Shown here in pieces: positions 41,591 to 47,318 of a stretch of 64,000 bases of DNA. The notes beneath the pieces were generated by a model, which was not told the DNA's origin, did no database searches, and saw only the letters and a program-made list of their open reading frames with translations. Numbering within the stretch: the stretch's first letter is position 1; each line of letters begins with the position of its first letter. Source of the DNA: Pseudonocardia alni (GTDB taxonomy: Bacteria; Actinomycetota; Actinomycetes; Mycobacteriales; Pseudonocardiaceae); contig NZ_PHUJ01000003.1 in assembly GCF_002813375.1 (NCBI RefSeq), positions 2,666,001 to 2,730,000 on the forward strand. The letters run 5' to 3'. A program made the translations under genes and the position numbers.

Positions 41591-43207
41591 TCACATCCTC
41601 GCCAGTGTCCTTCGGGCGATCTTGCCCGTCGGGGTGCGGGGCAGCTCGTCGGCGAAGGCGACGACCGCGGGCCGCTTGAACCGGGCGAGCCGGGCCGCGC
41701 AGTGCGCGGCGACCGTCTCCTCGGTGAGCTCGGCGCCCGCGACCGGCACGATCACGGCCTTGACCGCGGCGCCGGTCCGGTCGTCGGGCACCCCGACGAC
41801 GGCGACCTCGGCCACCGCGTCCAGCTCGGCGACGACCTGCTCCACCTCGCGCGGGTAGACGTTGAAGCCGTTGACGATGACCAGGTCCGAGGACCGGTCG
41901 ACGAGGTGCAGGTCGCCGTCGGTGTCGAGGTAGCCGACGTCGGCGGTGACGAACCAGCCGTCCTCGCCCGGGCCGCCGGAGCCGTCGGGCCAGTAGCCGG
42001 AGAACAGGTTCGGCCCGCGCACCGCGATCAGTCCGGTGTCGTCGGACGGGTCGGAGCCGTCGTCGTAGTCCAAGTCGTCCAGCGGGTCCGCACCGCGCGG
42101 CTCGGGCTCCGGCGCGGGCCTGCGCTCCATCGCCTGCCCGTCGGCATCGACCAGGCGCAGCTCGACGCCGGGCAGCACCTGCCCGACCGAGCCGGGCTTG
42201 GCCGGCCGGCCCAGGTCGTTGCTGGTGACGACGGGCCCGCCCTCGGTGAGGCCGTAACCCTCGTGCAGGTCCAGCCCGCTCGCCGCGCGGAAGTCCGCGA
42301 GCCAGCCCGCGGGCAGCGGCGCCCCGCCGGAGGTGCACAGCCGTACCCCGGCCATCGCGGCGCGCAGCCGCTCCGGGCCGAGGTCGAGCAGCATCCGGAA
42401 CATCGACGGCACCCCGGCGACGACGCTGACCCGCTCCTCGACGACCGTCTCGACCAGCCGGTCCGGGGAGAACCGGCCGGGCAGCACGACGGTCGCGCCG
42501 GTCCAGCAGACCTGCAGCAGCCCGGCGGCGAGGCCGTAGACGTGGAACAGGGGCAGCGCCAGCAGGACCCGGTCGACGCCGTTCACCGGCGCCGGGCGGA
42601 GCGCACCCGCCTGCTCGCGGTTGGCCAGCAGCGCGCGGTGCGACAGCTGTACCCCGCGCGGGCGCCCGGTGGTGCCGGAGGTGAACACGACCAGCGCGAT
42701 GCGCTCGGGGTCGGCGGGAGCCCGGCCGACCGGGGCGTCCGGGACCGGGGCGGCCAGGTCCGGCGGGCCCAGCAGCGTCGCGCCGACGCCCTCGGCGCAG
42801 CCGGCCGCGACGGCGTCGTCGGGCCGGGCGACGACCGCGACCGGCCGGGCCTGGTCGAGCACGACCTCGAGCTCGCGGGTCACCGAGCCCGCGCCGAACG
42901 GTACGACGACCGCGTCGGCCCGCAGCGCGCCGAACAGGGCCACGCAGTAGCCGGCGCCGTCGGGCAGCCCGATCGCGACCCGGTCGCCGTGGCGGACGCC
43001 CGCCGCACGCAGCCGGGCGGCCTCGGCGGAGACCGCGGCGTCGAACGCCGACCAGGTCAGCGTGAGCGGCGCCGCGCCGGACAGGTCACGGACGGCGTCG
43101 TGGCCCGGACGCTCGGAGGCGTTGCGCGCCACCAGGTCGGCGAGGTGGGTGGGCCGGTCGGGACGGTGGCCCGGCACGGGGTCGGAACTCGGCACGGCGG
43201 TCTCCAT
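41591..43207 (-). CDS. AMP-dependent acyl-CoA synthetase (long-chain fatty acid-CoA ligase-like)
   Basis: This 538-aa ANL enzyme has the P-loop LVVFTSGTTGRPRGVQLSH, YGLTEGGPVV, GWFVTADVGYLDTDG, the hinge DRSSDLVIVNGFNVYPREVE and the catalytic Lys in TPTGKIARRTLARM. It activates a carboxylic acid as its CoA thioester. A 35-residue acidic insert (about 355-390, DDLDYDDGSDPSDD) is unusual. It leads the operon with the glutaredoxin-like and molybdopterin genes and is divergent from the sigma factor gene. Confidence 0.9.
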   Translation of the reverse strand: METAVPSSDPVPGHRPDRPTHLADLVARNASERPGHDAVRDLSGAAPLTLTWSAFDAAVSAEAARLRAAGVRHGDRVAIGLPDGAGYCVALFGALRADAVVVPFGAGSVTRELEVVLDQARPVAVVARPDDAVAAGCAEGVGATLLGPPDLAAPVPDAPVGRAPADPERIALVVFTSGTTGRPRGVQLSHRALLANREQAGALRPAPVNGVDRVLLALPLFHVYGLAAGLLQVCWTGATVVLPGRFSPDRLVETVVEERVSVVAGVPSMFRMLLDLGPERLRAAMAGVRLCTSGGAPLPAGWLADFRAASGLDLHEGYGLTEGGPVVTSNDLGRPAKPGSVGQVLPGVELRLVDADGQAMERRPAPEPEPRGADPLDDLDYDDGSDPSDDTGLIAVRGPNLFSGYWPDGSGGPGEDGWFVTADVGYLDTDGDLHLVDRSSDLVIVNGFNVYPREVEQVVAELDAVAEVAVVGVPDDRTGAAVKAVIVPVAGAELTEETVAAHCAARLARFKRPAVVAFADELPRTPTGKIARRTLARM

Positions 43208-43766
43208 CCTCGGACCCGCCGGGGCGGGGTCGGCTCATCGGCACGCGTCGCCGTCAGTGTTCCAAACCCGGCCACGACCGTCGTGTCCCGAGGGACCGCT
43301 CACCGCTGTGTACGCCACGTGTCGATTCGGACACGCTTCGCGCACGGTTCGTCCACCGCGCGTATCGGGCCGCTCGCCGGAACGGCACGCGACGAGAGGC
43401 GGCGAGTGCGTTGCGCCACTCGACAGACGTCTATGCTCCGCCGCTACATGAAGTTCAACGCGTGAACCGCCGGTTCGTCGCGCGACTCACCCGAGGGAGT
43501 GGCATGCAGCTCGACGCCAGCGCGCCACGGCGCACACCGCGCCGCGCCGCGCGGGACGCGCCGGCGGTCCCCGCCGGCCGGGTCGCCCGCCGAGCCGTAC
43601 CCCGTCCGACCCCCCGGGATCCATGACCCGGCCGATGCGACCGCACCGCCTGCTCCGACAGCAGCGCTCCGAGACCATCCCCGAGACCGTCCGTCCGAAC
43701 CGGGCCCCCGAACCCGGCCAGGACAGACCCGACACCGTCCGCCCCCAGCCGGACGGGGAGGTGTCC
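43208..43766. other. Divergent promoter and leader region upstream of the bldN-like gene
   Basis: The stretch contains a candidate promoter TTGCGC (43411-43416) and TATGCT (43432-43437) with 15-bp spacing, pointing to the sigma gene. A possible 40-codon leader frame runs 43504-43626 (GAGGGAG before ATG; Arg/Pro-rich product) and its stop overlaps ATG 43623, the alternative sigma start. There is weak evidence that the leader is translated. Confidence 0.45.
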
Positions 43767-44561
43767 GTGACTTCAGCGACCTCTGCACCGTCCCAGCCGA
43801 CGGGGCCGATCGCGTCCGCTCCCCTGGTCGACGCTCCCCCCACGTACCCCGCAGGCCCCGCCCTACACCGCCCGGACGGCCGGACCACCCGGTCGGGTCC
43901 GCCCGGCCGTACCGAGCAGGACATGCCGATGCCACGACAGGCACCGCAGATCTCGCAGGAGCTGCAGCGCCCGGAGGCCGACCCGGCCGACGAGGCCGCC
44001 CGCGCCGTCGAGGACGCGAACAGCTCCTGGGCCCTGGTCGAGGCCTGCCAGGCCGGCGACGCGGCCGCGTTCGGCGAGCTCTACGAGCGCTACCACGACG
44101 TGGTCTACCGGTACGTGCTGTTCCGGATGGGCGACCGGTCCTTCGCCGAGGACGTGACACAGGAGACCTTCGTCCGGGCACTGCGCCGGATCTCCTCGGT
44201 CAGCTACCAGGGCCGTGACATCGGGGCCTGGTTCGTCACCATCGCCCGAAACCTGATCTTCGACTACGTCAAGTCCAGCCGGTTCCGGCTGGAGCAGACG
44301 ACCTCGGAGATCGTCGAGCTGTCGCCCAGCACCGGTGGTCCCGAGCAGCAGGTGCTCGACATGGCCACCAACGACGAGCTGCTGGCCTCGATCGCCAAGC
44401 TCAACTCCGACCAGCGCGAATGCATCCAGTACCGGTTCCTCAAGGGCCTGTCGGTCGCCGAGACCGCCGAGCTGATGGACCGCAACGAGGGTGCGGTCAA
44501 GGCGCTGCAGCACCGCGCGGTGCGTCGTCTGGCGCAGCTCCTCCCGGACGGTCTGCGGTGA
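43767..44561 (+). CDS. bldN: ECF sigma factor, BldN-like
   Basis: This is 264 aa from GTG 43767, which has GGGGAGG five bases upstream; ATG 43623 would give 312 aa. Sigma-2 runs about 88-165 (SWALVEACQAGDAAAFGELY, DVTQETFVRALRRI, GRDIGAWFVTIARNLIFDYV) and sigma-4 about 205-260 (LNSDQRECIQYRFLKGLSVA, AELMDRNEGAVKALQHRAVR). The KSSRFRLEQTTSEI linker and RFLKGLSVAETAELM match Streptomyces BldN. The roughly 86-residue Pro-rich extension before sigma-2 recalls the BldN pro-sequence, which is removed by proteolysis. The next gene looks like its anti-sigma factor RsbN. Confidence 0.85.
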   Translation: MTSATSAPSQPTGPIASAPLVDAPPTYPAGPALHRPDGRTTRSGPPGRTEQDMPMPRQAPQISQELQRPEADPADEAARAVEDANSSWALVEACQAGDAAAFGELYERYHDVVYRYVLFRMGDRSFAEDVTQETFVRALRRISSVSYQGRDIGAWFVTIARNLIFDYVKSSRFRLEQTTSEIVELSPSTGGPEQQVLDMATNDELLASIAKLNSDQRECIQYRFLKGLSVAETAELMDRNEGAVKALQHRAVRRLAQLLPDGLR

Positions 44562-44652
44562 GCGGGTCTGCCGCCGGATCAGCCGGAACGCGAGAGGGTG
44601 TGTCGATCACTGCGCCGAACGCACTACTCGATGCGGTGAACGGTTTGAAGGC

Positions 44653-44680
44653 CGTAACCTCGTCCGCAGTCGGTCGTTGT
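44653..44680 (+). promoter_or_regulatory. Candidate sigma-BldN-dependent promoter
   Basis: CGTAAC (44653-44658), a 16-bp spacer, then CGTTGT (44675-44680). This matches the sigma-BldN/AdsA consensus CGTAAC-N16-CGTTGA (from memory) except for the last base. RNA would start near 44686-44690, about 60 bases before the rsbN-like ATG. It lies in the sigma/anti-sigma gap, as the BldN-dependent rsbN promoter does in Streptomyces. Confidence 0.72.
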
Positions 44681-44751
44681 ACAGACCGGCGTGCACTGAC
44701 GGCGCCACACGCGCCGACGAGCAGCGCGAGACTGCAGTGAGGACGGACGGC

Positions 44752-46176
44752 ATGCCCAGGGCATGGGACGACGGGTACCCCGGCGACGACGGTTTCGACC
44801 GTGCGCCGGCGGGTGCCCCTGCATCGGAGGAGCTGGCGCACGAGATCGCGCTGGCCGCCGCGCTGGACCGTTCGCGGCGTGATCTCTCGCCCGATCCGCA
44901 CTCCTCGGCCCGGATGCGGGCGCGGCTGTTCGAGGTGCTGGCCCAGGAGGGCGTCGGACAGCAGTCCGGCGGGTCCCCGTTCGGCGACCGGTTCGACCGC
45001 GTCGACCAGGCCGACCTCACCGCGCCGATCGGCCCTCCGATCGCCGACGACCTCGACTGGGACGCGGTGTCCAACCGCCGCGCCGCCGGCGAGCACGCCC
45101 CGGCCGCGGACGACCCGACCGGACGCAGCAGCCGTCCGCGCCGCGGCCGCCACGTGCTGCCGTCGGACCACCCGGACCATCCGGAGCAGGTGGGTGCCCC
45201 GGCCGGACCGGCCCGCGACGCCGAGGCCGGCCCCGGCCGCGACGACTCCGCCCGCCCGGCGCAGGCCGGCGCCCGGATGCTGGACCGCCGCCGTCCGAGC
45301 GTGCGCAAGCGCTTCGGCGTCGTCGTCGGCGGGTTCGCCGCGCTCGCGGTGATCGCCGGCGTGACCTCGACCGCCAGCCGCGACGCCCTGCCCGGCGACG
45401 CGATGTACGGCATGAAGCGCGCCAGCGAGAGCGTCGGCGGGGTGTTCACCGTCGGGCAGCAGGCCGAGGCCGCCCGCCAGCTCGACCTGGCCCGCTCCCG
45501 GGTCGACGAGCTGGAGAGCCTGGTCGCGCGGTCCACACCGCCGTCGCCGGACGCGGTCGCGTCCGCGATGGGTGACTTCGACCGGGCCACCAGCACCGGC
45601 AGCAGGCTGATGCTCACCGGCGCCGGGACCGACGGCGCGGACACCTCCCGCCTGGCCGAGCTGCGGACCTGGGCGGCCGCCCAGTCCGGGCGCATCACCC
45701 GTCTGCAGTCCGATCTGCCCGCCGAGAGCCGCGGGGAGACCTCGGAGGCGATCCGCCTGCTGGACCGGGTGCTCTCCCGGGCCGAGGCGCTGCGGGCCGG
45801 CACCGGCTGCGCCGCGGACAGCGGCGGCACCGTCGACGACCTCGGCCCGGTGCCCGGCGAGTGCCGCACCGCGGGCGGGCCGTCCTCGGCGCAGGCCGTC
45901 GAGCAGTCCGCGCCGGTGACGCCGTCGGAGACCGCGACCGGCACGCCGTCGCCGTCGCCGACCTCCGGTCCGGCGACCTCGACCTCGCAGGCCCCGACCA
46001 CCTCGGGGTCCTCGCAGCAGGACGGCGGGTTGCCGCTGCTGAACGGTGGTGGGTCGACCACCTCCGACAGCGGGTCGGGCAGCTCGTCGGAGTCGTCGTC
46101 GGAGCAGGACCGTCTGCTGCCGCCGATCACCATCCCGCCGCTGCTGCCGGGCCTCGGCCCGGTCACCCTCGGCTGA
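44752..46176 (+). CDS. RsbN-like membrane anti-sigma factor (DUF5667)
   Basis: This is 474 aa. Residues about 25-66 form a short helical segment (SEELAHEIALAAALDRSRRD, then MRARLFEVLAQ) that fits an RsbN-type sigma-binding domain. A Pro/Asp-rich linker leads to one membrane helix (GVVVGGFAALAVIAGVTS, about 189-206). Outside is a DUF5667-like helical domain (PGDAMYGMKRASESVGGVF, RQLDLARSRVDELESLVAR), then a Ser/Thr/Pro-rich tail. It should hold the BldN-like sigma at the membrane. ATG 44752 is preferred; GTG 44737 is in frame. Its pairing with the sigma gene is the main evidence. Confidence 0.8.
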   Translation: MPRAWDDGYPGDDGFDRAPAGAPASEELAHEIALAAALDRSRRDLSPDPHSSARMRARLFEVLAQEGVGQQSGGSPFGDRFDRVDQADLTAPIGPPIADDLDWDAVSNRRAAGEHAPAADDPTGRSSRPRRGRHVLPSDHPDHPEQVGAPAGPARDAEAGPGRDDSARPAQAGARMLDRRRPSVRKRFGVVVGGFAALAVIAGVTSTASRDALPGDAMYGMKRASESVGGVFTVGQQAEAARQLDLARSRVDELESLVARSTPPSPDAVASAMGDFDRATSTGSRLMLTGAGTDGADTSRLAELRTWAAAQSGRITRLQSDLPAESRGETSEAIRLLDRVLSRAEALRAGTGCAADSGGTVDDLGPVPGECRTAGGPSSAQAVEQSAPVTPSETATGTPSPSPTSGPATSTSQAPTTSGSSQQDGGLPLLNGGGSTTSDSGSGSSSESSSEQDRLLPPITIPPLLPGLGPVTLG

Positions 46177-46331: not shown

Positions 46332-47318
46332 GTGGTGAGTGATCCCGGGTCCGTCCCCCCTCTCGACCAGAGCGGGACCCGCGAGTCTCACCCGCCCACC
46401 CACACCGGGTTCTCCGAGGAGCCGGGGGTGCTGGAGCGGGCGACCGCGCTGGACTCCGCGCAGCGGGCCGGTCAGGCCTCCGCCGCCGCGGCCGTCGCCG
46501 CCGAGGCCGACGACCACCCCGACGGTCCGGAGGGTGGGGACGGCGCGCCGCCCGACCTCACCGCCGCCGCCTTCTTCGACTGCGACAACACGATGATGGT
46601 CGGCGCGTCGATCTTCCACTTCGCCCGCGGCCTGGCCGCGCGCAAGTTCTTCACCACCTCCGACATGGCCGGCTTCGCCTGGCAGCAGATCAAGTTCCGG
46701 GTCGGCGGCCGGGAGGACAAGGGCGGCATCGCGGGGCACCGCGACACCGCGCTGTCGTTCGTCGCGGGCCGTCCGGTCGACGAGGTCGTCGCCCTCGGCG
46801 AGGAGATCTACGACGAGCTGATGTCGGACCGGATCTGGGCGGGGACCCGGGCGCTGGCCCAGATGCACCTCGACGCCGGCCAGCGGGTCTGGCTGGTCAC
46901 CGCGACGCCGATCGAGCTGGCCCGCATCATCGCGCGGCGGCTCGGACTGACCGGGGCGCTGGGCACCGTCGCGGAGTCCGTCGACGGGCTCTACACCGGA
47001 CGGCTGGTCGGCGAGATCCTGCACGGCCCGGCGAAGGCGCACGCTGTCCGCGCACTGGCCGCGTCGGAGGGGCTGGACCTGCGTCGCTGCACCGCGTACT
47101 CGGACTCGGTGAACGACGTCCCGATGCTCTCGGCGGTCGGCACCGCGGTCGCGGTGAACCCGGACTCCGAGCTGCGTGACGTCGCGAAGGCCCGCAACTG
47201 GCAGATCCGCGACTTCCGGACCGGGCGCAAGGCCGCCCGGATCGGGGTGCCCTCGGTGCTCGGCGCGGGCGCCGTCGCCGGGGCGGTGGCGGCCGGGATG
47301 GCCTACCGCAAGCGCTGA
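46332..47318 (+). CDS. serB1: HAD-IB phosphatase, SerB1-like
   Basis: This 328-aa protein has the HAD motif I nucleophile in [16 protein letters not shown], motif II in [16 protein letters not shown], and motif III/IV in [11 protein letters not shown] and [18 protein letters not shown]-terminal hydrophobic stretch ([18 protein letters not shown]) may anchor it to the membrane. The family includes phosphoserine phosphatase-like and lysophospholipid phosphatase-like enzymes. It resembles Rv0505c by position. The N-terminal ~75 residues are disordered. GTG 46332 and 46335 are alternative starts after AGGAAGG. Confidence 0.88.

Follow-up and report, generated by a model that had tools for sequence, protein, structure and literature searches.

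The sigma-BldN/RsbN pair of Streptomyces venezuelae was reportedly the subject of studies by Bibb et al. (2012) and Schumacher et al. (2018). Passages of PMC4255298, PMC4125116 and PMC7406223 deal with this pair, and the first of them describes the S. venezuelae rsbN promoter as BldN-dependent. The motif given for BldN in the relevant part of PMC2375139 is CGTAACN16CGTTGA. A class III anti-sigma domain (ASDIII), a short helical segment binding two sigma domains, is described in a passage of PMC7406223 which swaps the names BldN and RsbN. In the passages of PMC4255298 that concern this locus, Chater and Chandra (2013) reported bldN with adjacent rsbN in complex actinomycetes, with local synteny and a fast-diverging RsbN, and inferred early establishment of the step leading from BldN to BldM.

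In this work, we analyzed a stretch of 64,000 nucleotides of Pseudonocardia alni DNA (the window), in which two genes and the short region between them resemble this system (Table 1). We assign a probability of about 0.87 to the reading that this is a Pseudonocardia bldN-rsbN locus with a self-inhibiting loop and envelope-enzyme outputs. The likeness to the S. venezuelae pair comprises the adjacency of the two genes, the ECF core of the sigma factor, a membrane partner with a DUF5667-type domain and a PPLLPGL tail, and a BldN-type promoter of rsbN; as an orthologous pair with local synteny, the locus also resembles those of other complex actinomycetes, as far as these are described in the passages of PMC4255298. 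On the other hand, the spacer of the rsbN promoter is 16 nucleotides long in the window and mostly 17 in Streptomyces-like genomes, the Pseudonocardia partner is much diverged, the bldM-like gene is devoid of a near-consensus BldN promoter, and the genome has no match to the chaplin family. The module itself thus belongs to a known kind; its conserved feedback promoter is well supported, and a change of output is probable and testable.

Table 1. Features of the bldN-rsbN region and of the genes flanking it (positions in the window).
Feature	Position	Strand	Basis or remark
Acyl-CoA synthetase-like gene, syntenic flanking gene, outside the circuit	41591..43207	-	near bldN in 69/80 named loci (best 80 of 588)
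Possible in-frame N-terminal extension of the sigma factor	43623..43766	+	from ATG 43623; MTRPMRPxRLL-type peptide in some members of the genus
bldN orthologue, ECF sigma factor	43767..44561	+	264 aa from GTG 43767; Pfam Sigma70_r2 and r4
-35 element (CGTAAC), predicted BldN-type promoter of rsbN	44653..44658	+	columns 92-100% alike in 25 N16 sequences
N16 spacer of the rsbN promoter	44659..44674	+	between -35 and -10
-10 element CGTTGT	44675..44680	+	CGTT 100%, next two bases 96 and 88%, in 25 N16 sequences
Expected transcription start	44686..44688	+	from the usual distance to -10
rsbN orthologue, probable anti-sigma factor with one membrane span and DUF5667	44752..46176	+	474 aa from ATG 44752
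Putative sigma-binding segment, cytoplasmic, with predicted helices at residues 26-45 and 49-65	44827..44946	+	AlphaFold2 helices, block pLDDT 67-85; loose conserved pattern
Membrane-spanning helix region, residues 184-210	45301..45381	+	AlphaFold2 model; hydropathy of named relatives
Extracytoplasmic DUF5667 domain, predicted helical bundle	45385..45720	+	most blocks at or above pLDDT 90
C-terminal PPLLPGL-type tail, common to Streptomyces-like RsbN	46114..46173	+	alignments
HAD-IB hydrolase, syntenic flanking gene, outside the circuit	46332..47318	+	near bldN in 73/80 named loci (best 80 of 588)

Judged by their sequence relationships, the two genes are the Pseudonocardia orthologues of Streptomyces bldN and rsbN. 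The first-pass annotation had called the sigma factor BldN-like on the basis of two peptides, both of which are present, and this assignment was borne out by profile, structure and tree comparisons. TIGR02952, the model of the BldN family, was the best curated ECF family and the top NCBIfam model (E 1.6e-54; runner-up 2.6e-30), though the score of 184.4 bits lies under the equivalog cut-off of 206.45. Of the 197 genomes in the class survey, 81 matched TIGR02952 at E 1e-40 and only 36 of these 81 exceeded the cut-off, hence many probable members score below it. The closest solved structure was chain 6dxo_A (E 5.8e-49; next chain 1.9e-21), and we take 6dxo to be the S. venezuelae BldN-RsbN complex. 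This agrees with the structure described in the pertinent passage of PMC7406223. The genomes termed Streptomyces-like throughout this text belong to family f33, genus g37, a name inferred from the one genome tested (G226); the sigma factor of G226 follows 6dxo_A nearly letter for letter (E 4.3e-81), and the N-terminus of its RsbN-like partner matches 6dxo_D (E 1.3e-28), a chain listed under the label BldN, yet matching the partner and not the sigma factor.

The nearest named relatives of the window's sigma factor are those of Pseudonocardia, with P. parietis in the first place (93% over the core), and the two proteins pair in the tree with support of 100/96. The same tree separated a BldN set of 48 rows, the window's sigma factor and the Streptomyces-like ones included, from an outgroup of only two ECF rows, its bootstrap being not fully settled. 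The sigma core is conserved from about residue 87 and is preceded by an N-terminal extension. Two in-frame candidate starts are present, ATG 43623 and GTG 43767, and many members of the genus show both kinds; the latter is preceded by GGAGGTG, and the internal start in relatives also stands behind GGAGGTG or a similar sequence. Long and short forms of the sigma factor could arise from these two starts.

The product of the second gene is a probable anti-sigma factor of sigma-BldN. Its translation most probably begins at ATG 44752, with GAGGA in front, a start at GTG 44737 being also possible. DUF5667 was the sole Pfam domain found in it (E 2.6e-8) and is present in all 32 aligned relatives. When a profile of seven relatives was compared by hhalign with nine Streptomyces-like partners, 137 columns were aligned with a probability of 99.4% (E 1.4e-21), and alignments revealed the PPLLPGL-type tail at the end of the partners in both groups. 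Together with the single predicted membrane helix, these results uphold the initial description of the protein as RsbN-like. The same description included a short N-terminal helical segment binding the sigma factor, and here the outcome was divided: two helices are indeed predicted (Table 1) and relatives share a loose pattern in this part, but the segment alone showed no significant similarity to Streptomyces-like RsbN in the profile comparison (probability 3.3%, E 0.013). As the sequence link of the N-terminus is not significant, we assign the sigma-binding part by its position, the predicted helices and the loose pattern. As a predicted short helical segment, it resembles the ASDIII of the PMC7406223 passage. 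Comparison of the RsbN profile with solved structures returned no useful PDB match, and fold searches with the model of the partner gave no clear result.

It might be argued that the sigma factor is a BldN-like paralogue belonging to some other ECF group and that the DUF5667 protein is a sensor by itself rather than an anti-sigma factor, as could be suspected from the TIGR02952 score under the cut-off and from N-terminal helices unmatched by profile to the solved RsbN. However, the window's genome (G000, 6.0 Mb) contains a single TIGR02952 match with an E value of at most 1e-40, the neighbourhood of the gene is shared in three families, and the partner as a whole matches the Streptomyces-like profile and has the same C-terminal tail, which makes such a paralogue highly improbable.

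Assignment of the pair as bldN and rsbN draws attention to the sequence between them. CGTAAC-N16-CGTTGT, noticed already in the first-pass annotation, is found there, and we regard it as a strongly conserved, predicted BldN-type promoter; the positions of its elements make the start given in Table 1 reasonable. Among 25 sequences with a 16-nucleotide spacer, the hexamer columns were 88-100% alike, whereas 13 of the 16 spacer columns were at 40-80% (the others at 32, 92 and 100%), and such retention of hexamers while most of the spacer varies is the signature of a promoter. We searched for CGTAAC-N15-17-CGTT within 250 nucleotides of the bldN stop and found it behind bldN in 27 of 30 loci of relatives (best 30 of 34 matching genomes, window included; two of the three misses read CGTATC), in 63 of the 80 best named loci among 588 confirmed stretches and in 24 of 30 class loci (best 30 of 81 matching genomes), every locus being counted in the last two sets, and the loci being related and best-scoring, so that these counts are not independent draws. 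Shuffles of single bases matched 5 times in 30,000, 4 in 24,000 and 3 in 9,000 for the three sets, respectively, or about 2 in 10,000, and neither the other strand nor the reversed pattern gave any match behind bldN in the 80 named and 30 class loci.

Within the best 80 of 588 named loci, the element was present in 16 of 17 loci of Pseudonocardia plus Actinomycetospora (L076-L092), 35 of 40 mostly from other Pseudonocardiaceae (L093-L132) and 12 of 23 mostly from Geodermatophilaceae (L133-L155); within the best 30 of 81 class loci, it occurred in all 15 Streptomyces-like ones and in 9 of the 15 others. The exact element is missing from 17 named and six class loci of these best-scoring sets, and five of the 17 (L079, L134, L136, L138 and L144) have one -35 base changed (CGTATC or CGTACC) with CGTT kept. 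In the genome-wide search, CGTAAC-N15-17-CGTTG was found at 3 sites in G000, against 0 for the reversed control. Conservation of the rsbN promoter outside Streptomyces, demonstrated here, is not reported in the passages of PMC4255298.

One could still imagine that the pair is BldN/RsbN but that another ECF sigma factor reads CGTAAC-N16-CGTTGT, in which case rsbN would tie BldN to a different pathway instead of being self-driven. The 63 first-look sigma candidates in the window's genome make the presence of other ECF sigma factors likely. Nevertheless, loci from several families have the element behind bldN, and it corresponds to the published bldM motif of Streptomyces. Moreover, four loci among the best 80 of 588 (L101, L105, L113 and L151, together Allokutzneria, Kibdelosporangium, a record labelled Rhodococcus rhodnii, and Geodermatophilus obscurus) have the HAD gene where rsbN would be expected, and three of these four are also devoid of the element, L101 alone keeping it. 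We therefore consider reading by another sigma factor improbable, and the four loci indicate additionally that the bldN-rsbN pair is not obligatory.

A negative feedback circuit of the BldN type, as in Streptomyces, which the first-pass annotation had envisaged, is thus very likely on account of the conserved promoter and the orthologous pair. Sigma-BldN would take RNA polymerase to CGTAAC-N16-CGTTGT promoters, among them the intergenic one, which would drive rsbN. RsbN in the membrane may then use its short N-terminal helices on the cytoplasmic side to bind sigma-BldN and hold it away from core polymerase, so that the negative feedback would limit or time the BldN response. An envelope signal which sets the release is probably sensed or relayed by the extracytoplasmic DUF5667 domain and the PPLLPGL tail, and the outputs of the released sigma factor would remodel the envelope. 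In this scheme, orthology, architecture, promoter conservation, synteny and a bldM-like gene without a near-consensus BldN site are read from the sequence, and we infer the reading of the promoters by BldN, the protein binding, the nature of the signal and the set of output genes. For the logic of the circuit we rely on S. venezuelae, in which rsbN is described as BldN-dependent in PMC4255298. Presence of the element behind bldN in most of the named and class loci, against the controls, suggests that the feedback loop is probably ancient.

The surroundings of the module are conserved as well. In the best 80 of 588 named loci, some of which end early at contig ends, the acyl-CoA synthetase gene occupies one side of bldN and the HAD hydrolase gene the other (frequencies in Table 1), the latter side including also an acyltransferase (68/80) and an epimerase gene (64/80). 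This neighbourhood is syntenic in Pseudonocardiaceae, Geodermatophilaceae and Dactylosporangium. The module had been viewed as inserted between genes that are close together in mycobacteria; since its neighbours are syntenic across three families with the module in place, that view is not sustained. There was no BldN match among the 14 genomes of family f8 (probably mycobacteria) listed, the listing covering all but 96 of the genomes without a match, and loss of the module in that family would be a simpler reading than insertion. Two records labelled as Rhodococcus rhodnii (L113) and Nocardia sp. (L131) carry Pseudonocardiaceae-type loci and may be misnamed.

A separate problem is what BldN controls beyond rsbN. 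The bldM-like gene of the window's genome encodes a response regulator plus a LuxR-type domain and lies near groEL; its neighbours are an ECF-sigma-like gene on one side and, on the other, a whiB gene, with an extra open frame before whiB; the Streptomyces-like bldM-like gene is flanked by the same kinds of genes, and the proteins of the genus and of Streptomyces-like genomes are 49-52% identical. Orthology was judged from similarity and, where inspected, neighbours, and the survey detects near-consensus promoters only. As a positive control, the BldN motif was found before the bldM-like gene in all 15 Streptomyces-like genomes, one having TTAA for TTGA. By contrast, CGTAAC-N15-17-CGTT was found before this gene in 0 of 30 relatives, including 23 genus loci with 1,300 nucleotides of upstream sequence; 21 of these 23 genomes also have bldN. 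Hence bldM, suggested at first as a target, has no near-consensus BldN promoter at any of the 23 full-length genus loci. Outside the Streptomyces-like family, the promoter was equally missing from this gene in all of 29 further genomes with bldN (0 of 29 having it), and from the 11 genomes without a bldN match. Of 12 inspected among those 29, seven (G061, G064, G065, G066, G075, G089 and G107) have the rsbN promoter and five (G106, G124, G151, G193 and G223) do not; in this sample, therefore, the rsbN loop can persist without the bldM link. Our survey conflicts with the very early BldN-to-BldM step inferred in the passages of PMC4255298, which it does not bear out.

The change of output could be only apparent if the bldM of Pseudonocardia still has a BldN-dependent promoter, but one so degenerate that pattern searches miss it. 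In nine genus loci, relaxed matches (TGTAAT or CGTAAT ... CGTC) do occur 170-171 nucleotides upstream of the bldM-like gene, with the same element in a tenth, incomplete one (L296), and the Streptomyces-like sites lie at 151-161 nucleotides. However, the conserved part of these matches is the 'spacer' (CTCCATTCGG) rather than the hexamers, the window's genome lacks the -35, and rsbN promoters of the same genus keep their hexamers almost letter for letter. Such a hidden promoter thus seems unlikely to us, and a change of BldN output in Pseudonocardia relative to Streptomyces remains the probable interpretation. Apart from this question, CTCCATTCGG is accompanied by an inverted copy (CCGAATGGAG or near) at a distance of about 40-50 nucleotides in many Pseudonocardia (L270-L292); the pair sits about 100-165 nucleotides before the bldM-like gene and is a possible operator.

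Chaplins were the other suggested target. The PF03777 search gave a match in one of 40 genus genomes and none in the window's genome, leaving this suggestion without a candidate gene there; as 14 control genomes gave none, the sensitivity of the search for small genes rests on that one match and is weakly shown. Instead of bldM and chaplins, the outputs in the genus appear, from the promoter patterns, to be envelope enzymes, namely an L,D-transpeptidase in a number of species and an SGNH hydrolase in the window's clade. In the 40 genus genomes, CGTAAC-N15-17-CGTTGT occurred at 60 sites versus 5 for the reversed pattern. Fifty of the 60 were classified: 23 belong to rsbN, 5 to L,D-transpeptidase and 22 to other genes or places, some of the last preceding exported or envelope-type proteins and seven lying inside an open frame. 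The looser CGTAAC-N15-17-CGTT was found at 7, 5 and 12 sites in G000, G014 and G001, respectively, against one control site in each.

A BldN-type site precedes the secreted L,D-transpeptidase (YkuD) gene in 12 of 30 loci, foremost those of closer homologues (7 of 9,000 shuffles), and the secreted SGNH hydrolase gene in 8 of 30 (0 of 9,000 shuffles). The latter eight are the seven loci closest to the window and L261, whose site is almost at the gene start and may be due to chance. An exact site precedes the SGNH gene of the window's genome, in which the best transpeptidase homologue has a CGTATC variant; six other transpeptidase homologues (seven of nine matches were inspected) have none. Considering the loci without a site (18/30 for the transpeptidase and 22/30 for the hydrolase) and the 22 of 50 genus sites found elsewhere, the list of outputs is incomplete in part, and some of the sites may have arisen by chance.

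We consider it an even bet that the BldN-rsbN loop represents an ancient core, that control of bldM by BldN was a later acquisition of the Streptomyces lineage, and that elsewhere, Pseudonocardia included, BldN would serve a regulon for remodelling of the envelope, made up of the L,D-transpeptidase, the SGNH hydrolase and further exported proteins, its original job being remodelling of the cell surface and not commanding sporulation genes. The value of the comparison lies in a wiring diagram in which the promoter of self-inhibition is retained over great distances and, among the sampled genomes, a near-consensus BldN promoter at bldM is found only in the Streptomyces-like family, which makes the assembly of actinomycete multicellular development testable by start-site mapping in one non-Streptomyces species. 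Many Pseudonocardia form aerial hyphae and spores, and the 'different life cycle' ascribed to the genus by the first-pass annotation may be overstated.

Several BldN-like sites deserve mention separately. Near-identical ones precede an ABC transporter ATPase gene in G004 and G011 (L056 and L327) and a glycosyltransferase gene in G041 and G046 (L052 and L332). In G050 (L067:1501), a transpeptidase-type site stands about 220 nucleotides before an OsmC-like gene, with no space for a transpeptidase, a possible case of gene loss under a retained promoter. Finally, G000 and G014 have a BldN-like site at an equivalent place (L231:1501, G000:C3:4186134, and L221:1501, G014:C2:584942). This site follows an undecaprenyl-diphosphate-synthase-like gene, precedes a terminator-like hairpin and is convergent with a gene for a small secreted protein; transcription from it would yield only a short RNA.
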